From positions 1 through 28,075 of the IMG/VR virus record IMGVR_UViG_3300025652_000395: DNA of 28,075 nt; one strand, 5' to 3'. This document shows, one piece after another, positions 3,298 through 28,075 of this stretch. Within the stretch, counting starts at the first letter, position 1. Every line of letters begins with the position of its first letter. Both the position numbers and the translations under genes were made by a program. The notes under the pieces are model-generated. The model searched no databases, was not told the origin of the DNA, and saw only the letters and a list, made by a program, of their open reading frames with translations. The DNA comes from a virus.

Positions 3298-3727
3298 TAG
3301 TAACAAAACAACAGGCATTAGCTTAGTAGGGAAACTGGTATTAGAGTGGTGGGGACCCGGGGAGCGATAGCGGAGCAGTAGGAAGATAAAGGACTGGTTA
3401 ATAAAGAACGATGAATAACTCTAATAAAAACATCTCAGTACCTATTAACTGGAAATTCATGACAATGCTGTATGTAGCATATTTGAAATTATAAGTTCAA
3501 TATGTGAATGGTAGTTCAACACTATCATGCCTGACAATTTAGGTAGCAACCACCTTAACCAAAGTGTTGCCGCATGAGCCATCATTCGATAGTTGGCGTG
3601 GTCTTATGGTGAGACCCTTCAGGTGCTCGTACTTTTAAGCTAGAGGCCTGTTGAAGGAGGACGTATTTCGCATGTAGACTAAGTGAGAGTCTTCCCGGTC
3701 TATATCGTTAAGACTCTCACTTTTTTT
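3298..3727 (+). ncRNA. Large structured non-coding RNA, about 425 nt, family not recognised
   Basis: No convincing reading frame, a dedicated promoter, and a strong terminator at the end. Pairings visible by eye: TATTAGAGT (3339-3347) with ACTCTAATA (3418-3426), 9 bp; CTGGTTAATA (3394-3403) with TATTAACTGG (3443-3452), which crosses the first and so would be a pseudoknot; a three-way junction with ATTCA/TGAAT (3455/3505), hairpin ATGCT/AGCAT (3465/3476) and hairpin CATATTTGAA/TTCAATATG; GGTAGT/ACTATC (3510-3526); CATGC/GCATG (3526/3572); GGTCT/AGACC near 3600; CCTTCA/TGAAGG around 3616-3657. I checked by eye for tmRNA, RNase P, group I/II intron and 6S hallmarks and saw none. Large phage RNAs such as ROOL or GOLLD are the closest concept, but I cannot assign it. 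Confidence 0.75.
3683..3727 (+). terminator. Intrinsic terminator of the large RNA
   Basis: Perfect 11-bp stem GTGAGAGTCTT (3683-3693) / AAGACTCTCAC (3710-3720) with a 16-base loop, followed by seven T. Confidence 0.95.
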
Positions 3728-3807: not shown

Positions 3808-4629
3808 ATGAATTACAAAGCACCAAAAAATTTATTATCGACAAAGAATTCTAAAACCATTAAAGGTGAAAAAATGGGGTATACTACATACATTATGTAT
3901 TTGGCACCACATAAACAGAATTCTAAAGGGGTCAACTTATGTTCACATGCAAGTGAGGGTTGCGCTAAGGCGTGTCTCTTCAATTCAGGGGCTGCAAGAT
4001 TCAACCAAGTGCAAAGAGGTAAGATTAATAAAACTGAATACTTTCTAGCTGATAGAAAAGGGTTTATGCTACAGTTGTTTAATGAGCTTACCCGTATTGA
4101 AAGAATGCACAATGCAGTAGTAGGTGACGAACAAATAGGGCGTACAGGTAAAGTAGTTAGATACAAAAAGTTTGCAGTACGTTTGAATGGAACAGCGGAT
4201 ATCCCGTTTGAAAATATCAAAATTAAAGATAACAAAAATATCTTTGAATTATTTCCAAACGTACAATTTTATGATTATACCAAAAATCATAAAAGATTCG
4301 AAAATAAAGTGATTGCGCCTAACTATCATTTAACTTTTAGTAGAAGTGAAACAAACGATGCAATTAGTTTAGATATCCTAAATAGGGGCTATAATGTAGC
4401 TTATGTATTTGGAGTTAAAAAAGAACAAGACTTGCCAAGCGAATACAACGGGTTTAAGGTTGTTAATGGTGACGAAAGCGATTTACGATTCCTAGATGAA
4501 GAAAACGTCATTGTAGGGCTTAAATACAAGCTTATGACAGGCAAAGGTACAGCGGGTAAAAATAAAGATAACGTTGAAAACAACGATTTCTTAATCGATG
4601 TTTCGAAAGAAACACTAGTAACCGCTTAA
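3808..4629 (+). CDS. GP88-like phage protein, 273 aa
   Basis: Resembles the 'gene product 88' family first described in mycobacteriophages and spread through phages and plasmids. Signature seen: N-terminal NSKTIKGEKMGYTTYIMYLAPH, then the Cys/His cluster LCSHASEGCAKACLF with C45, H47, C52 and C56, then a segment around ARFNQVQRGKINKTEYF. Residues 130-230 contain β-strands, LNGTADIPFE and an NVQFYDYTKNHKRF block typical of the family. The molecular role is unknown; the cysteine cluster suggests a metal site. Own promoter and own terminator, so it is a single-gene unit immediately downstream of the large RNA. Confidence 0.8.
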   Translation: MNYKAPKNLLSTKNSKTIKGEKMGYTTYIMYLAPHKQNSKGVNLCSHASEGCAKACLFNSGAARFNQVQRGKINKTEYFLADRKGFMLQLFNELTRIERMHNAVVGDEQIGRTGKVVRYKKFAVRLNGTADIPFENIKIKDNKNIFELFPNVQFYDYTKNHKRFENKVIAPNYHLTFSRSETNDAISLDILNRGYNVAYVFGVKKEQDLPSEYNGFKVVNGDESDLRFLDEENVIVGLKYKLMTGKGTAGKNKDNVENNDFLIDVSKETLVTA

Positions 4630-8867: not shown

Positions 8868-8916
8868 AAATATGGCGTAGGGTGGAGTCTACTCTTCTGA
8901 TGTCTCAGCCCCTTTA
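8868..8916 (-). ncRNA. Small RNA family, copy 1 of 3
   Basis: Minus strand, just after a -7 box TATCTTTG (complement of 8923-8930). Starts GGGGCTGAGACATCAG, with hairpin CTGA/TCAG, then GAAGAGTAG, then CTCCACCCTACGCCATATTT. GTAG pairs with CTAC in the second half. No reading frame of note. Two further copies lie at 12546-12609 and 15376-15431, in the same strand and same position relative to the upstream terminator. Confidence 0.7.
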
Positions 8917-8937
8917 CTATAACAAAGATACAAGAAA

Positions 8938-8972
8938 AAAATAACCTGACCTAATTAAAGCCAAGTTATTTT
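8938..8972 (-). terminator. Terminator with nested promoter, cassette 1
   Basis: Ends gene 8987. Stem AAAATAAC/GTTATTTT plus T-run. The loop carries TTAG (complement of 8951-8954), the -33 box of the promoter whose -7 box is TATCTTTG (complement of 8923-8930), with exactly 20 bases between. Confidence 0.8.
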
Positions 8973-8986
8973 AAATAAATTAATTG

Positions 8987-9205
8987 TTAATCCCCTGTTA
9001 ATCCAGCGCTTCGTCTTTCTAATCTAGTTTCAAGTTCAGAATTGGCCGCTTCATCTTCAGCCTCGGTACTTAATCCCAGTTCACGTTTAATTAACATGTT
9101 TAAGGTCATAGTCAGGTCATCAACCTCACCAGCTTCAAGCCCAGGGATTGCTTCCTGATAAGCCTCTAAAATTGGGTTTACAATTTCTTTCAATGTTTTA
9201 CTCAT
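8987..9205 (-). CDS. Hypothetical helical protein, 72 aa
   Basis: Start MSKTLKEIVNP at 9205, chosen because an earlier ATG at 9232 overlaps the promoter (TTTG complement of 9258-9261; TACATTTG complement of 9230-9237). Acidic and helical: 'AYQEAIPGLEAGEVDDLTMTLNMLIKREL', ending 'ELETRLERRSAGLTGD'. No known domain. Divergently arranged with the plus-strand gene at 9358. Confidence 0.75.
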   Translation of the reverse strand: MSKTLKEIVNPILEAYQEAIPGLEAGEVDDLTMTLNMLIKRELGLSTEAEDEAANSELETRLERRSAGLTGD

Positions 9206-9229
9206 AATATCTATGTTTAAAGTTAGATA

Positions 9230-9261
9230 CAAATGTACAAGTAATATTTGAATAAAACAAA
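9230..9261 (-). promoter_or_regulatory. Bacteroidota-type promoter
   Basis: Minus strand TTTG, 20 bases, TACATTTG. Drives gene 8987-9205. Confidence 0.85.
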
Positions 9262-9301
9262 TTTATTTTAATGTTAATATTATGCTAAAGCAGCAGAATC
9301 A

Positions 9302-9333
9302 TTTGTGAGATATAAAACAATGTATTATATTTG
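9302..9333 (+). promoter_or_regulatory. Bacteroidota-type promoter (divergent)
   Basis: TTTG (9302-9305), 20 bases, TATATTTG (9326-9333). Drives the lone plus-strand gene of this region at 9358. Confidence 0.85.
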
Positions 9334-9357
9334 CTGTATAATTTAAAACAATATATT

Positions 9358-9702
9358 ATGAGCTTTAGAAATTTATCATTATTTAGTTTTACCATCAGCA
9401 AAGATGACAACCATCAGGACCAAGACCTGATTGAGATGTGGCACAATTTAGACAGCGACTACGACCCGGACAGCGAGAACTGGCGTGTTGATGATGACCT
9501 GGAGGAACTGGGCTATGAATCCCAGGCCCAGAAAGAAATCAAACAAATTGATTGGGCCGGGGAAAATTATGACGATGAGACAAAGATTTGTACAATCTTA
9601 GGGATGATTTCAGATGGTCATGGGGATTATTCGGAACAGTTCCAGTATGAGATAAGCGAAGGAGATGGAGCTTACGCTGTAGCTGTGGCGTTCCTGACTT
9701 AG
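9358..9702 (+). CDS. Hypothetical acidic protein, 114 aa
   Basis: Start MSFRNLSLFSF at 9358, after the leader CTGTATAATTTAAAACAATATATT; an earlier ATG at 9331 overlaps the -7 box. Very acidic (WHNLDSDYDPDSENWRVDDD, about 28-47). C-terminal half 'GMISDGHGDYSEQFQYEISEGDGAYAVAVAFLT'. An acidic DNA-mimic-like composition is possible but unproven. It is the only plus-strand gene right of 7643 and is isolated by a divergent promoter and a bidirectional terminator. Confidence 0.75.
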   Translation: MSFRNLSLFSFTISKDDNHQDQDLIEMWHNLDSDYDPDSENWRVDDDLEELGYESQAQKEIKQIDWAGENYDDETKICTILGMISDGHGDYSEQFQYEISEGDGAYAVAVAFLT

Positions 9703-9716
9703 ACACATTTGTGTAC
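9703..9716 (+). repeat. Palindrome ACACATTTGTGTAC, copy 3 of 4
   Basis: Directly after the TAG stop of gene 9358, the same placement as copy 1 behind gene 7182. Confidence 0.7.
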
Positions 9717-9731
9717 AGGACCACGCATTAA

Positions 9732-9761
9732 AAAACCCAGAGCTGGAAAACTCTGGGTTTT
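9732..9761. terminator. Bidirectional terminator
   Basis: AAAACCCAGAG (9732-9742) / CTCTGGGTTTT (9751-9761), 11 bp with an 8-base loop. Ends gene 9358 on the plus strand and can stop minus-strand transcripts arriving from the RNA at 9811. Confidence 0.92.
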
Positions 9762-9810
9762 AATTAAAAAATACTAATTATGAATAAAAACAAAAATTGA
9801 ATGCTATTTT

Positions 9811-9988
9811 AAAAAGAAGCAGCAGCTTTGTTTATCTCACCCATATTCTAAAAAACCATACCCTCTGGCTTCAGGTTATATTAGAATGTTGCCGCTGTCG
9901 TTTTCCTTTCGGTGCTGACTATTTGTGACCGCTGGTATAGATTTAAGGCTTTACCACTTCTATGTAGCCACTGCTGCTTCTTTATTTG
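9811..9988 (-). ncRNA. Structured non-coding RNA, about 175 nt, closed by a 12-bp stem
   Basis: Minus strand. 5' AAGAAGCAGCAG (complement of 9971-9982) pairs perfectly with 3' CTGCTGCTTCTT (complement of 9814-9825), which runs into a T-tract and so doubles as the terminator. Inside: TGG/CCA with ATAGA/TCTAT, then CGGT/ACCG, then ATTCTAA/TTAGAAT with AACC/GGTT, suggesting a multi-branched fold rather than the single rod of 6S RNA. The promoter is directly upstream. No frame of note. Family not recognised. Confidence 0.75.
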
Positions 9989-9992
9989 ATTA

Positions 9993-10024
9993 CAAATATA
10001 TGACATTTTTTTGACATACACAAG
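9993..10024 (-). promoter_or_regulatory. Promoter of the 9811-9988 RNA
   Basis: Minus-strand CTTG-type -33 near complement of 10020-10024, -7 TATATTTG (complement of 9993-10000). Confidence 0.7.
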
Positions 10025-10050
10025 TTTTTTTTAACTTTTTTTTAAAAATA

Positions 10051-10107
10051 AATGGGAGCTGCTGGCGGTAGTAGCGCATTAAGTGAATCCTTGTACTCAC
10101 TCCCATT
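10051..10107 (-). other. Long 3' stem-loop downstream of gene 10113
   Basis: Minus strand AATGGGAG (complement of 10100-10107) pairs with CTCCCATT (complement of 10051-10058), enclosing about 41 bases with an inner GTGA/TCAC hairpin, followed by ATTTTT. It may be a terminator or an RNA-processing or stabilising element. A perfect 12-base palindrome TTACCTAGGTAA (10109-10120) overlaps the stop codon of gene 10113. Confidence 0.55.
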
Positions 10108-10112
10108 CTTAC

Positions 10113-10337
10113 CTAGGTAAAATTATCATTATAAACTTTTCCGATTTCAATTTCTTCGGTCCTTCCACCCCAATCTTCAAAGGCTGATTTGAATGTTGAC
10201 TGTGAAGGTAATTGTTTCTTCCACTCGTAAAACTTTGCTTTCAAAGCTCTTAGAGCCGCTTCTTCTGTTACATCCAAAACCGTTAGACCGTATCCAAAGA
10301 TTTCAGGTATTGTCGCTATCCAAATTCTTTTTTCCAT
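10113..10337 (-). CDS. Hypothetical protein, 74 aa
   Basis: Start MEKRIWIATIPEIFG at 10337. The longer reading from 10403 would translate the terminator/promoter and is rejected. 'WIATIPEIFGYGLTVLDVTEEAALRALKAKFYEWKK' looks like a β-strand plus helix unit, as in HicB-like or related small folds, but the match is too weak to claim. A palindrome (copy 4) lies in its 24-base leader. Confidence 0.75.
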   Translation of the reverse strand: MEKRIWIATIPEIFGYGLTVLDVTEEAALRALKAKFYEWKKQLPSQSTFKSAFEDWGGRTEEIEIGKVYNDNFT

Positions 10338-10342
10338 ATGCT

Positions 10343-10356
10343 GTACACTTTTGTGT
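10343..10356 (-). repeat. Palindrome GTACACTTTTGTGT, copy 4 of 4
   Basis: In the 5' leader of gene 10113-10337, between the -7 box and the ATG. A protein bound here could block transcription or translation of that gene. Confidence 0.65.
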
Positions 10357-10360
10357 CTGA

Positions 10361-10409
10361 CAAAGATACAAGAAAAGATTGGAACTACCAAAGATAATTC
10401 CAATCTTTT
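10361..10409 (-). terminator. Terminator of gene 10411 with nested promoter of gene 10113
   Basis: Minus strand AAAAGATTGGAA / TTCCAATCTTTT, perfect 12-bp stem (complement of 10398-10409 and 10373-10384). The loop holds TTTG (complement of 10389-10392), then 20 bases, then TATCTTTG (complement of 10361-10368). One sequence ends one gene and starts the next. Confidence 0.85.
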
Positions 10410-10410
10410 T

Positions 10411-10800
10411 TTAGTTTGTTAAAAAACCTCTTTTAACATAGTCTTTACCACACTTATACTTTGCACCCGTTATTACATTTTCAATTTTGCAAGGGTTCTT
10501 AGGTGCTTTGGTATTAAAACCTACAAGTTTAAGGCGTTCACCTCTAACTGTAAATTCTCTATTGTAATCAGAAGGTTCAAAACCATATCTATCACAAATG
10601 CTATCAAATTTAATTTGACCTACATCTTTACCGTTAACAGTTTCATTGTTGACTGTTAAACGACTTGTAAAGTGAGTTCCATCGGGATGGTAGGTAATAC
10701 TACCAATAGAAGCTTTGATGTTATGCTTCGCTTCCAACGCTTGCATAGCCTCTTTAAAATCTTTTCTAAACTCTTTAAAATCAGTATTTAAAATATCCAT
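10411..10800 (-). CDS. Hypothetical protein, 129 aa
   Basis: Begins MDILNTDFKEFRKDFKEAMQ (helix), followed by a β-like core 'ASIGSITYHPDGTHFTSRLTVNNETV' and a basic C-terminus with two Cys (KNPCKIENVITGAKYKCGKDYVKRG). Resembles small phage proteins of unknown function carrying 'FTVRGERLKLVGFNTKAPKNP'. Promoter TATATTTG and the TTTAACCAATAAAT leader lie directly upstream (10801-10850). Confidence 0.8.
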   Translation of the reverse strand: MDILNTDFKEFRKDFKEAMQALEAKHNIKASIGSITYHPDGTHFTSRLTVNNETVNGKDVGQIKFDSICDRYGFEPSDYNREFTVRGERLKLVGFNTKAPKNPCKIENVITGAKYKCGKDYVKRGFLTN

Positions 10801-10874
10801 ATAAATTATTTATTGGTTAAACATATGCAAATATATAAGTAATATTTGACATACACAAGAAAAAAATGCACAAA

Positions 10875-11309
10875 TTAAATATTTGCGCATACTGGTCCAA
10901 GACCTCTTTGGATGCTTACAGCGTCTGTAAGCTCACGTCCACAACATAAACAGCTTCCCGTATGCATTACATCAACATTATTGTCAAGCCACTCAAAAGC
11001 TCTCTTTTCAACCCATAGCAATACAAATGCTATTACCTTAGAAGTAGGCGTTTCAACAACACCACCTTTTCTATAAATTTTACCATTAAAGTAACTACCT
11101 AAATATTTAAAATCTAAATATCTAGTTTCAACACTTACGTGAGTGTACCATTTACCTTTGAATTCAGCTCTTCTAATTTGAAAAGTGAAGTCCTTACCAC
11201 TCTTTAAAGATTTGATAGTAAAATTGGACCCGTTGTTATTTTTCTCACGTTTTACAACGTTGTAAAGAGCTTCAGATGAAATTTTAACTTGGTTGGCTTC
11301 AGTAGTCAT
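10875..11309 (-). CDS. DUF6011-like zinc-binding protein, 144 aa
   Basis: The C-terminus has the characteristic pattern 'GSCLCCGRELTDAVSIQRGLGPVC' (about residues 117-140): a C-x2-C pair, then SIxxGxGPxC supplying a further Cys. This block defines small zinc modules in phage and actinobacterial proteins (DUF6011). The N-terminal 100 residues have β-strands (DFTFQIRRAEFKGKWYTHVSVE). Biochemical role unknown; probably a metal-stabilised nucleic-acid or protein-binding module. Confidence 0.75.
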   Translation of the reverse strand: MTTEANQVKISSEALYNVVKREKNNNGSNFTIKSLKSGKDFTFQIRRAEFKGKWYTHVSVETRYLDFKYLGSYFNGKIYRKGGVVETPTSKVIAFVLLWVEKRAFEWLDNNVDVMHTGSCLCCGRELTDAVSIQRGLGPVCANI

Positions 11310-11360
11310 AATCTTTGGTTTTAAATTCTATTCAAAGATAAGGGTAATATATGATATAAC

Positions 11361-11384
11361 CTAATATATTTTAAATATTATATC
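11361..11384. repeat. 24-base AT repeat, copy A
   Basis: CTAATATATTTTAAATATTATATC, identical at 12490-12513. This copy ends with the -33 box of the promoter for gene 10875. Confidence 0.6.
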
Positions 11385-11420
11385 CAATATTATTTTTAGA
11401 AGATATAAGACATTAACTAT

Positions 11421-11448
11421 TATAAGTTATATTAGTAGATAACTTATA
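11421..11448. repeat. 10-bp inverted repeat in an AT-rich gap
   Basis: TATAAGTTAT / ATAACTTATA with an 8-base centre, in the 240-base gap between genes 10875 and 11550. No T-tract; could be an operator or small hairpin. The rest of this gap holds a promoter (about 11325-11365), the AT repeat and the terminator at 11506. Confidence 0.5.
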
Positions 11449-11505
11449 CATAAAAGTCCAGTAGAAGCTCTTAAAATAGCTCGTAGCTATATGTATAGGG
11501 CAAAA

Positions 11506-11533
11506 AAAAAGCTATCATTTAAGATAGCTTTTT
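11506..11533 (-). terminator. Intrinsic terminator of gene 11550
   Basis: AAAAAGCTATC / GATAGCTTTTT, about 11-13 bp with a 6-base loop; on the minus strand it is followed by a T-run. Confidence 0.9.
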
Positions 11534-11549
11534 AATTTAAGATGCTTTT

Positions 11550-12413
11550 TTAGAAAGCATCAAAGTAACTTAATTTCTTACTTGAACGTTCAATTTGCAC
11601 TTCATTAGATGCAGTTGATTTTGAAATTTCAACTCGTCTGCTAAGGTAGTTAGTAACACTTGCATAAACGGTGTACATTGAAGCCTTAAGACCTAATTCA
11701 GCGTTATACTCTAATTCAGTATTAAACGCTTTTTTAAGTTCGTTATAACGGTCAATAGACTTAATTTCATTAGGGTTGATAGCTAATAATTTTCTAAACT
11801 CGTCAAAACTCATATCAGTTTTATGACCTCTTGGCATTTCTTGCTCATAAAACCATTTGTTAAGGTTAAACATAATTTCGGTTTGAGTCAATTCTTGACC
11901 GTCTAATAAAATATCACGTTGCTCAACTTGCTCTAACAATGATACAAAACCTTCAATAGATTTTTGCATCAAAACTAAACTATCTTTATAGTCTATTGTA
12001 TGTGGAATTTTGATATAAGCATCTTTGTGCATTAGTTTTGATTGAACCATACCATTAGTACAAATCAAACGTACTTGTTTGATAGCTAAATAACCTTTAC
12101 CACCACCATTATTAGGTACGGTAATAATAAGATTGTAAGTACTTTCACCTACTTTACTTGGTTTGTTACCAAAAGATACGTTTAAGCCAATAGACTCACC
12201 GTTTCTATGGTTAAAAGTAGTAACGTTGTAACCTTTGTCTAAAAATGCTTGACCTAATGTACTAACATCAGCAGTTTTAACAATATGGTAACTACCTTTA
12301 GGACAAACAACGTTTTTGCCCTCTAAGCCAAAAACTTGTCTAAAGTTAGATTTTGAACCGTCTTGGTTAAATAATTCTGCTTCTTGGTACTCAAATGTAA
12401 ATAAATTTTCCAT
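11550..12413 (-). CDS. DUF932-like phage/plasmid protein, 287 aa
   Basis: Resembles the DUF932 family of phage and plasmid proteins. N-terminal half has 'YHIVKTADVSTLGQAFLDKGYNV' and a β-rich core; the family hallmark 'VRLICTNGMV' lies about 109-118. The C-terminal half is helical (EGFVSLLEQVEQRDILLDG; 'ASMYTVYASVTNYLSRRVE'). Molecular function not established. Among the largest genes here, with its own promoter (TATATTTG near 12453-12460 complement) and a terminator. Confidence 0.8.
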   Translation of the reverse strand: MENLFTFEYQEAELFNQDGSKSNFRQVFGLEGKNVVCPKGSYHIVKTADVSTLGQAFLDKGYNVTTFNHRNGESIGLNVSFGNKPSKVGESTYNLIITVPNNGGGKGYLAIKQVRLICTNGMVQSKLMHKDAYIKIPHTIDYKDSLVLMQKSIEGFVSLLEQVEQRDILLDGQELTQTEIMFNLNKWFYEQEMPRGHKTDMSFDEFRKLLAINPNEIKSIDRYNELKKAFNTELEYNAELGLKASMYTVYASVTNYLSRRVEISKSTASNEVQIERSSKKLSYFDAF

Positions 12414-12489
12414 AATATTGGTTTTTAGTGTTATTATTGTTATTTCTTATGCAAATATACGAGTAATAAATGGAATAAAAAAATAAAAT

Positions 12490-12513
12490 CTAATATATTT
12501 TAAATATTATATC
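12490..12513. repeat. 24-base AT repeat, copy B
   Basis: Identical to 11361-11384; lies just upstream of the promoter of gene 11550. The pair brackets that gene. Confidence 0.6.
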
Positions 12514-12545
12514 AAAAAAGTTATTTTTATAGGTAAAATACTAAA

Positions 12546-12609
12546 AAAAAATATGGCGTAGGGTGGAGACCACTCTTCCCGTTGTTGGTGTTACACTCGG
12601 CCCGTCTTC
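12546..12609 (-). ncRNA. Small RNA family, copy 2 of 3
   Basis: Minus strand after -7 box TATCTTTG (complement of 12615-12622). Contains GGGCCGAGTGTAACAC...CGG (hairpin CCG/CGG with inner GTGT/ACAC), GAAGAGTGG, then CTCCACCCTACGCCATATTT, ending in a run of T, which makes termination here most plausible of the three. GTGG pairs with CTAC through a G-T pair where the other copies have GTAG/CTAC. Confidence 0.75.
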
Positions 12610-12630
12610 CACTACAAAGATACAAGAAAA

Positions 12631-12663
12631 AAATAACCCGACCTAATAAAAGCCGGGTTATTT
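12631..12663 (-). terminator. Terminator with nested promoter, cassette 2
   Basis: AAATAACCCG / CGGGTTATTT, 10 bp. The loop carries TTAG (complement of 12643-12646), with 20 bases to the -7 box at complement 12615-12622. Ends gene 12677 and starts the small RNA. Confidence 0.85.
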
Positions 12664-12676
12664 TTAAAAGTTTTTT

Positions 12677-12916
12677 TTAGTCCATTCTTCCGTAGTCTGT
12701 TGAAATTCTACTTTCATCAATTCCGTTTGCAATCATAATACCTCTCAGGATAGCGTAAACAAAGCCACAAGTACTGGAACCTTGAGCGGGTTGAGAAACA
12801 ACTCTCTTCCCGTCTAATTTAAGCTCGTAGCCCATAACGCAGGACCCGTGGTCACCATAAGCTCTTGTCACTTCACTTGAGATACTTTTTAATTTGTTTT
12901 GTAATTCGGTAGTCAT
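12677..12916 (-). CDS. Hypothetical protein, 79 aa
   Basis: Helical N-terminus (MTTELQNKLKSISSEVTRAYG), then 'CVMGYELKLDGKRVVSQPAQGSSTCGFVYAILRGIMIANGI'. The central part is β-strand then helix, like small phage proteins of unknown role. Promoter: TTAG (complement of 12968-12971), 20 bases, TATCTTTG (complement of 12940-12947), leader TATAGAATTTAAAAACCAATATT. Confidence 0.78.
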   Translation of the reverse strand: MTTELQNKLKSISSEVTRAYGDHGSCVMGYELKLDGKRVVSQPAQGSSTCGFVYAILRGIMIANGIDESRISTDYGRMD

Positions 12917-12939
12917 AATATTGGTTTTTAAATTCTATA

Positions 12940-12971
12940 CAAAGATATATGTTTAATATGATATATCCTAA
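12940..12971 (-). promoter_or_regulatory. Representative repeated promoter; -33 contains the upstream stop codon
   Basis: TTAGGATATATCATATTAAA..., 20 bases, TATCTTTG. The TAG of the -33 box is the stop codon of gene 12968-13096. Exact or near-exact copies stand at 15690, 17180, 17594, 18320, 20153, 21507, 25049, 26286, 27109 and 27610. Confidence 0.85.
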
Positions 12972-13096
12972 TATCCACCCGTAAAAGTTATTAATATTCC
13001 ACCATTCTTTTCTTCAGATTCAAATGTAACTCCACTGGAAATAAGTCCTGATAGCATTTCAGTAAACGATTCGTGGCTTAAAAATAATGTTTTCAT
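12968..13096 (-). CDS. Hypothetical small protein, 42 aa
   Basis: Start at 13096 has the standard leader (AATTTAAAAACCAATAGAT) and a -7 box just upstream. Reads MKTLFLSHESFTEMLSGLIS..., ending ITFTGGY; a helix followed by a short strand pair. Its TAG forms part of the next promoter. No family recognised, but the promoter and leader support a real gene. Confidence 0.7.
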   Translation of the reverse strand: MKTLFLSHESFTEMLSGLISSGVTFESEEKNGGILITFTGGY

Positions 13097-13152
13097 ATCT
13101 ATTGGTTTTTAAATTCTTTGCTAAGATATATGTTTTATTTTATATACGCAAG

Positions 13153-13181
13153 AAAAAAAGGGTTAACTTTCGCTAACCCTT
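13153..13181 (-). terminator. Intrinsic terminator of gene 13204
   Basis: Minus strand AGGGTTA / TAACCCT stem with GCGAAAGT loop, then seven T followed at once by the CTTG of the next promoter. Confidence 0.9.
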
Positions 13182-13203
13182 ACTACTATACAAAAACCAA
13201 CAA

Positions 13204-14175
13204 TTATCTAATTCTTTTAATTAGTACAAATAGCATTGCACTTGTATCGTGATATGGTTCAAATTCCACTATTTCATAGTTATTATAACACATAGCTAAA
13301 AATTTAAGGTAAATTCCGTCTTTTGTGTGTGGTTGGATATTCAAACCAAATTTAGCGATATTAGTATCATTTGAAAGCGTTTTAGCAAAATCACAACCCT
13401 TTTCATCTCTCAATGAAAAAGTAAAGCCTACAAGTCCCCCTACTTCAACTAAATTGTTATAAATGATGTATCTAACTTCATTTTCAAGCGTTGTAAAAGT
13501 AGAACACCAATCTGCAAACATATGCGAATAATTATCACTTGTTCTATTCAAAATAACTTCATTTGAAAGACAATTTGAAATTGAATGTACCTTAATTTTT
13601 TTACTAACAATAGTATTCAACATTTCATTGAAAATGTTAGGGTTTTTCTCGTTATATTCAACTACATCATACTCGAATTTATTATCCATTTCAACATTTA
13701 GTTGTAATTCAAATAAACACTCACTACTTGGCAATGAAAAGAATTTACCTGTTTTTTTAATACCATATTTTATAAGGTGCGAAATATATAAATCTCTAAT
13801 TCTTGCTTTTTCACTACCTTTAAAATTAGTTGCATTAATAACAACCTCTTTTTTAGGTTTTTTAGGTGCTTTTGGTATATCGTTATTATCAATAACGTTT
13901 ACAATTTTAGATGCAATTACGTTAGCATTAATAGAATTGATAGCAGTACCTTTAATAAACTTTTTTAACGTTGGTGTATCAACTCCTAATTGTCTTGCTA
14001 CTTCAACTTGTGCAATGTTTTTAGATGCTACTAATCTACCTAATTTTGCTCTTTGTAAGTTTACACTTGTTTTAGTAGATGCAAAATCAGCAGTAGGTAA
14101 CTTTACAAAATCAGTTCTTTTTAAGTTAGGCGTTTCGATTAACTTTACTCTTAATTTGCTTTTTAGTGTTTTCAT
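13204..14175 (-). CDS. Helix-turn-helix protein with possible degenerate methyltransferase-like C-terminal domain, 323 aa
   Basis: Residues about 54-77 (AQVEVARQLGVDTPTLKKFI) read as a helix-turn-helix. A basic proline/lysine linker (PKAPKKPKKE, 101-110) follows. Residues 145-260 have the order 'FFSLPSSECLFELQL...VVEYNEKNPN...DWCSTFTTLENEV...GGLVGFTFSLRD', which resembles the layout of class I methyltransferase-like phage/plasmid proteins (a strand ending in an E-Y-N pair, then a D-x-C motif-IV-like turn), but no clear SAM glycine motif is present. So the DNA-binding part is reasonably supported and the second domain is inference. Own promoter at complement 14205-14236. Confidence 0.65.
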   Translation of the reverse strand: MKTLKSKLRVKLIETPNLKRTDFVKLPTADFASTKTSVNLQRAKLGRLVASKNIAQVEVARQLGVDTPTLKKFIKGTAINSINANVIASKIVNVIDNNDIPKAPKKPKKEVVINATNFKGSEKARIRDLYISHLIKYGIKKTGKFFSLPSSECLFELQLNVEMDNKFEYDVVEYNEKNPNIFNEMLNTIVSKKIKVHSISNCLSNEVILNRTSDNYSHMFADWCSTFTTLENEVRYIIYNNLVEVGGLVGFTFSLRDEKGCDFAKTLSNDTNIAKFGLNIQPHTKDGIYLKFLAMCYNNYEIVEFEPYHDTSAMLFVLIKRIR

Positions 14176-14204
14176 GATTTGTGTGTTATTGGTTATTGTT
14201 GATA

Positions 14205-14236
14205 CAAATATATAAGTTTAATATGATATATCCTAA
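14205..14236 (-). promoter_or_regulatory. Bacteroidota-type promoter
   Basis: TTAG (complement of 14233-14236, containing the stop of gene 14233), 20 bases, TATATTTG (complement of 14205-14212). Drives the helix-turn-helix gene. Confidence 0.85.
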
Positions 14237-14973
14237 TATTTGTTTGAAATTCTTAATAAATGCTCTAATTCTTTTTGTAAATCTTTCTCATTTTCAGTAA
14301 ACCCACCACCTTGTCTTACTTTTCTTTCTATATATGGTTTAATAAGTTTGTGGTTATACTTTTCATTACGCATTACTCTAACAATAGCACGTCTGCAAAA
14401 TGCTTTGGTTGGTAATAAGCCTTTTAAGTCCATTATTTGTTCAACAATGGTATCAGATTCATTTTCGTTTGGAAAACTCATAGAACCACTTCTAAATGCT
14501 TTCATATCACTTGCACCGTTATATATCATAACTAAAGGTGTGATTTGTATTTTTGTATTCTTAAATACTTCTTGAAGTTTAATATACTCTCTAATTTTCA
14601 TTTTAGACCAAACATCTAAAAATTGATTTGTGCCCCAAGCTTTTGAACTATTATTAACATCTGCTATATATTGTGCTAACTCTAATTCAGTTTTAATATC
14701 AACTATCTCAAATTTAAACTCAATACCTAATAGTTTACAAGCCTCAAATCTATGTTGTCCGTCTAATATATAAAGCTTTTCAATACCGTCTATAATAGCC
14801 GTTCTAATAACTATTATAGCACCTCTGAACCCTCTAACTTTCATTGATGATGCTAACTTATTAACGTGGTTTTTGTCTACTGGACGATTAAAATCAAAGA
14901 AGTTAAATTGTGAATAATCTTTAGTTGAAAAAAATGATACTACTGAAAATGCTAATTTTTTTAATGTTTCCAT
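14233..14973 (-). CDS. ParB-like (ParB/Srx fold) protein, 246 aa
   Basis: The signature 'LYILDGQHRFEACKLLGIEFKFEIVD' (68-92) with D71-G72-Q73-H74-R75 is the conserved box of the ParB N-terminal domain, preceded by 'RPVDKNHVNKLASSMKVRGFRGAIIV' (30-55), its usual strand-helix lead-in. After it comes a helical region. There is no clear ParB helix-turn-helix, so a partition role is doubtful; phage proteins of this type may be nucleases or NTP-binding regulators. Ends within the next promoter's -33 box. Lies directly upstream of the helix-turn-helix gene on the same strand but has a separate promoter. Confidence 0.75.
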   Translation of the reverse strand: METLKKLAFSVVSFFSTKDYSQFNFFDFNRPVDKNHVNKLASSMKVRGFRGAIIVIRTAIIDGIEKLYILDGQHRFEACKLLGIEFKFEIVDIKTELELAQYIADVNNSSKAWGTNQFLDVWSKMKIREYIKLQEVFKNTKIQITPLVMIYNGASDMKAFRSGSMSFPNENESDTIVEQIMDLKGLLPTKAFCRRAIVRVMRNEKYNHKLIKPYIERKVRQGGGFTENEKDLQKELEHLLRISNKY

Positions 14974-15036
14974 AATATTGGTTTTTGTGTTATTGGTTAA
15001 TGTTGGTACAAATGTAAATGTAATAAATGATATATC

Positions 15037-15255
15037 CTAGTTAATATTATATTTTTTTGCAAAATAATTAACTACATCAGGAATATACTTTTTGTAATAA
15101 GGTTGGTTATCCATACACCAAGCTTTTAATTCAGCTTTTGTGTTAAGGATTAACCTATGACTTGCGCCACATTGTATCATATCTAAGATAGGTTCTAAAT
15201 CGTCAATGAAGTCTTGAACAGTCCAACCCTCCCAAATGTGTTTTTGTAAATTCAT
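15037..15255 (-). CDS. Hypothetical protein, 72 aa
   Basis: Tryptophan-rich N-terminus (MNLQKHIWEGWTVQDFIDDLEP) and helical body (MIQCGASHRLILNTKAELKAW), ending PDVVNYFAKKYNIN. This kind of sequence recurs in short phage proteins whose function is unknown. Leader AATTTAAAACCAATAATT and promoter with TATATTTG lie directly upstream. Confidence 0.8.
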   Translation of the reverse strand: MNLQKHIWEGWTVQDFIDDLEPILDMIQCGASHRLILNTKAELKAWCMDNQPYYKKYIPDVVNYFAKKYNIN

Positions 15256-15375
15256 AATTATTGGTTTTAAATTCTATACAAATATAAAAGTAATATTTGG
15301 ATAAAACAAATAAAATACCTGGGAAAATGAATATTTTAATATCCTAATTTTTTAACATTTAATTTCAGATTATTT

Positions 15376-15431
15376 AAATATGGCGTAGGTTGGAGTCTAC
15401 TCTTCCGATATGTTCCATCAGGCCCTTTTGA
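15376..15431 (-). ncRNA. Small RNA family, copy 3 of 3
   Basis: Minus strand after -7 box TATCTTTG (complement of 15437-15444). GGGCCTGATGGAACATATCGG (hairpin CC..GAT/ATC..GG), GAAGAGTAG, then CTCCAACCTACGCCATATTT. One base differs from the other copies in the 3' block (CCAACC for CCACCC). Confidence 0.7.
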
Positions 15432-15450
15432 TATATCAAAGATAAGGGGA

Positions 15451-15487
15451 AAAAATAACCCGTGCAACTTTTACCCGGGTTATTTTT
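15451..15487 (-). terminator. Terminator with nested promoter, cassette 3
   Basis: AAAAATAACCCG / CGGGTTATTTTT, 12 bp with a 13-base loop holding GTTG (complement of 15465-15468) as -33; 20 bases to TATCTTTG. Ends gene 15497. Confidence 0.85.
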
Positions 15488-15496
15488 AAAAGTTTT

Positions 15497-16787: not shown

Positions 16788-17159
16788 TTAAATTTCTTTT
16801 CTATACTCAACATCATTGTAACCGTCATTGATGAATTGGTTAGCTAAATTTTCAGCCTCTTGTTCAGTCAGGTAAAAGTCATTCACTTCACCACCACCTA
16901 CCCAAACACTCCATTGACTATCATTTGTCAATTTTTCAGGTTTGATGTTTTCAATCTTTAATAAAACTAAATCTTCATCACCTGAAATTGTAATATCACC
17001 AACAAATTCAGTTACTTTACAACTATGTGGTTCGTTCAATTCAAAGTCAGGTAGGTTTAAGTTTCTTTCTACCCAAGCTCTAATTTGCTCATTAGATGCG
17101 TCATTCTCAAAAAATAAATTAACGTCTTGAATTCCTAAGTCTGTTACTAATCTTCTCAT
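16788..17159 (-). CDS. Hypothetical acidic protein, 123 aa
   Basis: Acidic, with 'LFFENDASNEQIRAWVERNL' helix, then β-rich 'VTEFVGDITISGDEDLVLLKIENI', then 'WSVWVGGGEVNDFYLTEQEAENLANQFINDGYNDVE'. The last block (a strand, a turn, and a helix LTEQEAENLAN) resembles small phage domains with T-x-x-E-A-x-x-x-A helices. Function unknown. Own promoter and terminator. Confidence 0.78.
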   Translation of the reverse strand: MRRLVTDLGIQDVNLFFENDASNEQIRAWVERNLNLPDFELNEPHSCKVTEFVGDITISGDEDLVLLKIENIKPEKLTNDSQWSVWVGGGEVNDFYLTEQEAENLANQFINDGYNDVEYRKEI

Positions 17160-22216: not shown

Positions 22217-23095
22217 TTACGCAAGCATTCCTGATAAAATATGTTCAATTACATCAACCGTCCACCCGTTTCCCAGCATATTATATCGTTGCCCGTCTGA
22301 TACTCCTGAAGTATATCCGTCAGGGACATTCTGCAATCGCTCATATTCTACGGGCATTAGCTTTCTACATCTCCCGTCCTGAAATACTTTCTTTTGTTGT
22401 GAGCCTCCTGAAACCTTTGTTAGTGTCCCACACTTCCCGTTAAGATTATATACTCTTTTTAATATATCGTGCCCGTTGATATGTAACGTTGCCTGAACTT
22501 TGGCATCGTCCCCGTTATATGTGAACGGGACATCATACCAGTACTTTGCGGGTACTTTTTCTGCGGGCTCTACTATATCCCGTAATACTACACCCCTATC
22601 TTCAGGTAATTCAGGTATTGGAATATTGGTCCAATATAGACGGTCACGGTCTTGAGCTGAAAACAGATTACTATTTATTCTAACGGGTTCAACGCCCAAC
22701 GCATAAGAAATCATATTCTTATTCACGGTGGTCATTCCGCCCACATTCTCCAGCAAAAAGTATTTTGGTTGAAGCTCTTGCTTCAATCTCAAGAACTCAT
22801 AAAAGAGTTTAGACTTTTCCCCGGCTAATCCCTGATTGTGTTTGATGTTGTTGATGACACTCATCGATAAATTCTGGCAAGGACTGCCGCCAACCAGTAA
22901 ATCAGTTGGCTTTAAATCTTCACCCCGGATATTTAGAATGTCCCCAAGCTGAATAACTCCGGGATAGTTTTTGTCGTTGATGAGGTTGGCGTACTTATCT
23001 ATTTCACTAGAATACCCCGTATCAACTATGATACCGAGCTTTTCAAGTGCAATCCATATGCAACCCATTCCGTTAAATGTTGATGTTACTACCAT
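22217..23095 (-). CDS. DNA (cytosine-5-)-methyltransferase, 292 aa
   Basis: Transfers methyl from S-adenosylmethionine to C5 of cytosine in a specific DNA site. Motif I is 'TSTFNGMGCIWIALEKLG' (residues 4-21, variant F-x-G-x-G); motif IV 'GGSPCQNLS' with catalytic C73; motif VI 'ENV' (E116); motif VIII 'QDRDRLYW' (148-155); motif X-like 'MLGNGWTVDVIEHIL' at the end. Target region about 170-240. Length is short but complete for a phage enzyme. No restriction partner is adjacent, so self-protection or host mimicry is likely (inference). Last gene of the unit 23417-23223-23098-22217. Confidence 0.92.
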   Translation of the reverse strand: MVVTSTFNGMGCIWIALEKLGIIVDTGYSSEIDKYANLINDKNYPGVIQLGDILNIRGEDLKPTDLLVGGSPCQNLSMSVINNIKHNQGLAGEKSKLFYEFLRLKQELQPKYFLLENVGGMTTVNKNMISYALGVEPVRINSNLFSAQDRDRLYWTNIPIPELPEDRGVVLRDIVEPAEKVPAKYWYDVPFTYNGDDAKVQATLHINGHDILKRVYNLNGKCGTLTKVSGGSQQKKVFQDGRCRKLMPVEYERLQNVPDGYTSGVSDGQRYNMLGNGWTVDVIEHILSGMLA

Positions 23096-27635: not shown

Positions 27636-28075
27636 CTAATTTATTTTACGATACTTTATTTTACCTTCACAAAATACACAAGTTGCGCCACCCCACCAAG
27701 CCGTAAGTGATTCAGGAACGTATGGCATTAATTGAGTTTCCCCACAATCCTCACAATATATTTCATATATCAAACTATCTTTATGCCATTTAAGTTCTAC
27801 CTTAGAACTTGCAATACCTCCAAGTTGTATGCATATATCTTTCCAAATATTACCGTGGTCGCTTTGCCCTCTTGTTTCTACATCAATAGCGTGTGCCATT
27901 TCGTGTAAGATAATTCGTCTCCAAAAGTCTAAATTCTCATCAGCACGTTCCAATATAAACTTAGATAAATAAATTACTTTATTATCACTTCTACATTGCC
28001 CAGGAGCAGTATATTCCGCATTCCATTCAAAAGTCCAACCTAATCTAGCTAAATTAAAACTTTGTGGTTTAGATT
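27636..28075 (-). CDS. SprT-like zinc metallopeptidase (5' end outside window)
   Basis: The frame is open to the right edge (first whole codon at 28073). It reads SKPQSFNLARLGWTFEWN, then 'CRSDNKVIYLSKFILE', then 'LHEMAHAIDVETRGQSDHGNIW': the H-E-x-x-H zinc/catalytic motif with a third His 13 residues later, the pattern of SprT/Spartan-type peptidases. The C-terminal 'YCEDC...TCVFC' is the zinc ribbon usual in this family. SprT-like proteins cut proteins bound or cross-linked to DNA; in phage the role is unproven. The start is not visible; an internal TTG at 27953 could be mistaken for it. Confidence 0.88.
   Translation of the reverse strand, partial: SKPQSFNLARLGWTFEWNAEYTAPGQCRSDNKVIYLSKFILERADENLDFWRRIILHEMAHAIDVETRGQSDHGNIWKDICIQLGGIASSKVELKWHKDSLIYEIYCEDCGETQLMPYVPESLTAWWGGATCVFCEGKIKYRKIN

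Follow-up and report, generated by a model that had tools for sequence, protein, structure and literature searches.

Candidate small RNAs with covarying hairpins and a nearly invariant core occur in multiple copies in phages of presumed Bacteroidota hosts

The put RNA of phage HK022 is an antiterminator that acts in cis on the very transcript it starts. The anti-sRNAs of EHEC prophages are Hfq-dependent, base-pairing and enterobacterial, with few per genome as far as is known, and the herpesvirus HSURs, viral decoy RNAs, are eukaryotic and different in sequence from the phage family described here. Like put RNA, this family places two hairpins directly after a phage promoter and occurs in more than one copy per genome, but it is not oriented toward genes and has an invariant core. 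Like the EHEC prophage anti-sRNAs (PMC4104026), its members are predicted to be short phage RNAs that are transcribed on their own and presumably target molecules of the host; they differ in reaching up to 10 diversified copies, in belonging to Bacteroidota phages, and in that no conserved complementary target was found. As an analogy only, they share with HSURs the arrangement of several small viral RNAs that carry one recognition element on a variable scaffold.

Three copies lie on the minus strand of the window, that is, the whole stretch of 28,075 nucleotides analysed. From 5' to 3', a member of the family consists of a promoter, an optional hairpin (P0), GGG, a variable hairpin (P2), the nearly invariant core GRGUAGACUCC and often a U-rich end. 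The features of the three copies are as follows.

8868-8917, minus strand: candidate small RNA copy 1, with a short leader, GGG, P2, core GAGTAGACTCC (8894-8884) and ACCCTACGCCATATTT
8908-8905 (CTGA) with 8900-8897 (TCAG), minus strand: P2 hairpin of copy 1
8923-8930, minus strand: promoter -7 element TATCTTTG of copy 1, read from the sequence
8938-8972, minus strand: intrinsic-terminator-like hairpin directly upstream of the copy 1 promoter, from a hairpin scan
12546-12609, minus strand: candidate small RNA copy 2, with GGGC, P2 (CCG/CGG with GTG/CAC, minus strand), core variant GAGTGGTCTCC (12575-12565) and ACCCTACGCCATATTTTTTTTT
12615-12622, minus strand: promoter -7 element TATCTTTG of copy 2, read from the sequence
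12629-12665, minus strand: intrinsic-terminator-like hairpin upstream of the copy 2 promoter, from a hairpin scan
15376-15431, minus strand: candidate small RNA copy 3, with GGGC, P2 (CTGAT/ATCGG), core GAGTAGACTCC (15402-15392) and AACCTACGCCATATTT
15437-15444, minus strand: promoter -7 element TATCTTTG of copy 3, read from the sequence
15450-15488, minus strand: terminator-like hairpin AAATAACCCGGG...CGGGTTATTT upstream of the copy 3 promoter, found by eye

The original prediction of three dispersed minus-strand copies with common blocks is borne out. The block AAATATGGCGTAGGGTGGAG is exact at 8868-8887 and 12549-12568 and carries one change at 15376-15395, the single differing base foreseen for copy 3; 0.02 matches are expected by chance at up to 3 mismatches, and three matches were reached in 0 of 100 shuffles. 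On the minus strand, each copy runs through GGGC (GGGGC in copy 1), a hairpin, GAAGAGT(A/G)G and CTCCA(A/C)CCTACGCCATATTT. As had been claimed, the arms of the first hairpin, listed above as P2, differ between copies with the pairing kept, GTAG/CTAC becomes GTGG/CTAC, and all three copies share one setting, namely a hairpin terminator, then the TATCTTTG promoter, then the copy. TATCTTTG is the -7 element of Bacteroidota promoters (TAnnTTTG). The terminator-like hairpin before copy 2 holds TTAGG, at the -33 position, within its loop, and that before copy 3 was read by eye because its loop is longer than the hairpin scan allows. ARAGORN found no tRNA or tmRNA at the copies. Copy 3 folds into three helices (-10.4 kcal/mol), and thermodynamic stability is unremarkable (z of -0.6, +1.1 and -0.9 for copies 1, 2 and 3); given that the copies are not exceptionally stable, structural support comes from covariation and conservation rather than from stability. 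Individual TTTG/TAnnTTTG promoters serve many small genes across the window (1-28075), which also encodes a C5 cytosine methylase (22217-23095), DUF932 (11550-12413), GP88 (3808-4629) and a SprT-like protein (27636-27953); a protein-based search for relatives of the DUF932 neighbour gave no result.

Outside the window, strict patterns with a GCC end gave one viral contig (L004) and no genome; GCC proved specific to a lineage, which made these patterns too narrow. BLAST with the L004 copy led to Tenacibaculum phage Larrie (L005), which has copies at 16964+, 18813+, 19445+ and 17028-. In Cellulophaga phage phiST, cores lie at 1566 and 76473, with a GAGTGGACTCC variant at L138:4310. A looser search with the 16-mer AGRGTAGACTCCANCC yielded at least 118 stretches; among the matches listed, about two thirds are family members by inspection, in AT-rich contigs, and the same promoter precedes most of them. 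The 12-mer core AGRGTAGACTCC had 93 matches in 27 virus records scanned whole, against 0 for the reversed pattern. Copy number reaches 10 per record, clustered in about 26 kb, and records G005, G010, G014 and G020 have 9-10 copies each. Among the matches listed, relatives occur in roughly 60 unrelated virus contigs (about 63 groups); member contigs range from fragments of about 4 kb to over 300 kb, and the distribution is patchy even within close relatives of Larrie.

A covariance model (R1) built from 64 members recognizes copy 1, which was outside the training set, at 47.5 bits (E 2.3e-9), copy 2 at 38.9 bits (E 4.4e-7) and copy 3 at 49.7 bits (E 6.2e-10). The covariance-model search proposed with the original prediction yields many homologues, and duplication of a terminator and promoter alone does not explain the copies, because both differ between lineages and conservation reaches far past them. 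The family is nearly absent from host genomes: R1 had no match in 295 Bacteroidia genomes, in a search without a positive control whose empty answer is therefore weak, and 84,980 bacterial and archaeal genomes gave two matches only (L127 and L128). The sole convincing member in a bacterial assembly is that of L127, at 3653-3709 on the minus strand (JAUIIX010000044.1, a MAG); this contig may come from a phage and have been binned into the MAG. The Fulvivirga match L128 has no clear P2 hairpin, looks coding and is probably due to chance. Plasmids held no real match to the family. Several divergent viral members retain only U(A/G)GACUCC of the core (L148 19766-19822; L059 2150 and 12395; L084 14123 and 6265; L131 12279; L132 522), so that the true family exceeds the coverage of R1. 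A marine T4-like group with AGRGTAGACTCCANCC was excluded as a different element, a leader before the structural-gene region. There (L013, L014, L015 at 937-973, L017, L022 and others), GGAGUC...GGGGGAGAGUAGACUCCAGCCCC stands directly before a start codon and comes after a TATAAATA late-type promoter, and the second downstream gene of L015 resembles, by eye, a T4 gp19-like tail tube protein; this element is probably an unrelated translational leader that has the 16-mer in common by chance.

The TAnnTTTG promoter, of the bipartite Bacteroidota housekeeping type with TTTG 20 nt upstream, is found in 66 of 104 members versus 5.5 in shuffles, all 66 on the same strand, and in 17 at the mirror position. 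In many members P0 follows, its first pair lying 5 nt after TTTG, at the expected transcription start, and its closing pairs covary (z 3.7-6.6); position 7 with position -3, for instance, is A-U in 19, U-A in 11, C-G in 10 and G-C in 3 (z 6.6). The window copies belong to a short-leader class without clear P0. Between P0 and P2 stands GGG, rarely GUG. The arms of P2 have many different sequences across members, with a closing pair (the nucleotide directly following GGG with the third one ahead of the core) that is Watson-Crick in 64/64 and 76/76 distinct members, comprising 38 C-G and 26 U-A among the 64. The covariation score of P2, core hairpin included, is 0.397 versus 0.206 +/- 0.016 in shuffled alignments, which ignore relatedness among members, and 0.07-0.22 in slid controls, which address it. 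To obtain a gap-free alignment, P2 was stripped of its apical loop, with arms and core untouched, and members were omitted if they lacked GGG at its usual position or had a very short P2. Covariation in both P2 and P0, together with the many homologues, strongly supports the claimed small-RNA family with compensatory changes, whereas the claimed constancy of the 3' block stands for its full 20 nt within the window's lineage but family-wide only for GRGUAGACUCC, tightest in U(A/G)GACUCC.

Within the core, GAG and CUC may pair with each other, since the variant GGG/CUC, seen as GGG/CTC in place of GAG/CTC in 11 of 64 members, retains a G-U pair. GUAG pairs with a downstream CUAC or CUGC in 92.6% of cells, and some members have no partner for it. 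The 3' end is variable, often AACCURCCUUAUAUUUU, and its position is uncertain because the U-run is only mildly enriched (52 of 104 members versus 36 in shuffles) and window copies 1 and 3 have no good U-run. Longer closing stems can be read in some members (UUCGGG/CCCGAA in Larrie 16964; GACGUG/CACGUC in L094 and L059; GGGAC/GUCCC in L050). The GGC/GCC closing stem suggested by the window copies is not general, as the nucleotide following GGG is paired instead to the 3' arm of P2. One phage group hints at pairing of GGG with CCU, or of GUG with CAC, a signal confounded by relatedness. One phage group (L094 10810 and 12168; L075 2133; L130 2728) has CACGU after the core, which could pair with an upstream ACGUG (L094, L130) or a downstream ACGUG, a switch-like alternative. 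A DNA element, such as an operator or recombination site that mimics an RNA, would accord with the dispersed copies and with GAGTAGACTC, an imperfect palindrome; we regard it as highly improbable, for P2 and P0 show compensatory covariation across variable loops, the GGG/CTC variant keeps the RNA G-U pair while breaking the DNA palindrome, and the promoter lies mostly on one side (66 versus 17).

By a mechanical ORF call, 92 of 104 members are intergenic, with the next downstream ORF sharing the strand of the member in 35 cases and lying on the other strand in 46. In the region of Larrie that holds the copies, annotated genes are all on the minus strand, and three of the four copies oppose every neighbouring gene. 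The members are thus not oriented toward genes, which argues for stand-alone RNAs rather than general leaders. These observations also render unlikely a cis-acting RNA, be it a put-like leader that lets transcription pass a terminator, a riboswitch, or an insulator or terminator between genes, even though the element comes directly after a promoter and after the terminator of the upstream gene, some members (L005 16964, L050 5820) end in a closing stem and U-run, and two hairpins beside a promoter recall put RNA; moreover, each downstream gene in the window has its own promoter, and a terminator would not need a constant core. Where ten copies share one genome, leader, P2 and 3' end differ, and the 11-nt core is common to all. 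Because flanks and stems differ around one core, most copies appear diversified rather than recently duplicated, with a few near-identical copies within contigs L031, L053 and L095. Facing members overlap at their 3' ends in two places (L005 16964+ and 17028-; L050 5820+ and 5879-), the Larrie pair placing a perfect 12-nt complement to the core no further than about 65 bases away.

As to what the core might recognize, the original prediction offered an antisense seed or a protein-binding site. In a base-pairing small RNA, the core UAGACUCC would be an antisense seed on a conserved host or phage RNA, leading to translation block or decay, with P0 and P2 merely stabilizing the molecule. A short invariant block in variable scaffolds is typical of sRNA seeds, and GUAGACUCC can form 9 contiguous pairs, one of them G-U, with GGAGUCUGC of 16S, the best rRNA match in two Bacteroidia genomes, in which the A/G at position 3 pairs with U either way. 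However, this match is not significant, being equalled by 7% (16S) to 15% (16S and 23S) of shuffled 9-mers, and the 16S stretch GGAGUCUGC is itself base-paired in the ribosome. In addition, no complementary k-mer was enriched in a target-like way in phage contigs, where an excess of TAGACTCC is at least partly due to divergent members, and the 11-nt complement GGAGTCTACTC is depleted in 119 Bacteroidia genomes (24 versus 67 for the reversed word, totals added from tables). The antisense part of the prediction thus finds no support; a seed of 7-8 nt on a host RNA may still operate, and a short-seed antisense RNA, doubtful as we consider it, ranks second after a protein or RNP partner. An RNA anti-CRISPR would mimic a CRISPR repeat of the host; by eye, no repeat-like sequence was recognized in the elements.

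A constant recognition element, variable hairpins and several copies per genome would also suit an RNA cofactor, guide or scaffold, of a phage-encoded protein. This appears quite improbable, since, within about 5-10 kb around each element, even the most frequent protein family is present in at most 10 of the 63 unrelated contig groups. Given that the core is constant across contigs without a widely common protein family, its partner should be conserved among the hosts, which are taken to be Bacteroidota on the basis of the promoter type and the two cultured phages. The searches yielded no conserved RNA partner, which makes a protein or RNP the best guess. On sequence evidence, there is about an even chance that the copies are genes for early trans-acting phage sRNAs that offer their core to a conserved host factor and act as its decoy or inhibitor. 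Under this proposal, the copies would encode a stand-alone, trans-acting phage RNA of about 50-90 nt that host RNA polymerase transcribes as infection begins, with no need of phage factors. Its stems would serve as a scaffold, free to drift provided that pairing holds, and its core would be the feature recognized by a factor conserved among Bacteroidota hosts, most probably an RNA-binding protein or RNP, which the RNA would titrate or inhibit during host takeover or counter-defence. Several diversified copies would raise the dose while avoiding long identical repeats that would recombine. More specifically, and only tentatively, GRGUAGACUCC could be the inhibitory element of a multi-copy early decoy directed at an RNA-binding protein, RNP or defence complex conserved in Bacteroidota, constituting a new class of takeover or counter-defence RNA.

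No Rfam 15 family reached the gathering threshold for the window elements or the other loci tested, the Larrie record leaves the elements without annotation, and a literature search by sequence and topic, with most subscription literature and preprints outside its scope, gave nothing relevant. Phage sRNAs are already known; to the extent tested, what is new is the family itself, together with the number of its copies and the group of its hosts. Little is known of small RNAs in Bacteroidota phages, and the family spans dozens of unrelated phages. The constancy of the core amid differing flanks and stems suggests that its partner is conserved in a major bacterial phylum. As two cultured phages carry the family (Larrie of Tenacibaculum and phiST of Cellulophaga), its expression, its partner and the need for it are directly testable, and so is what would apparently be a new phage-host interaction.
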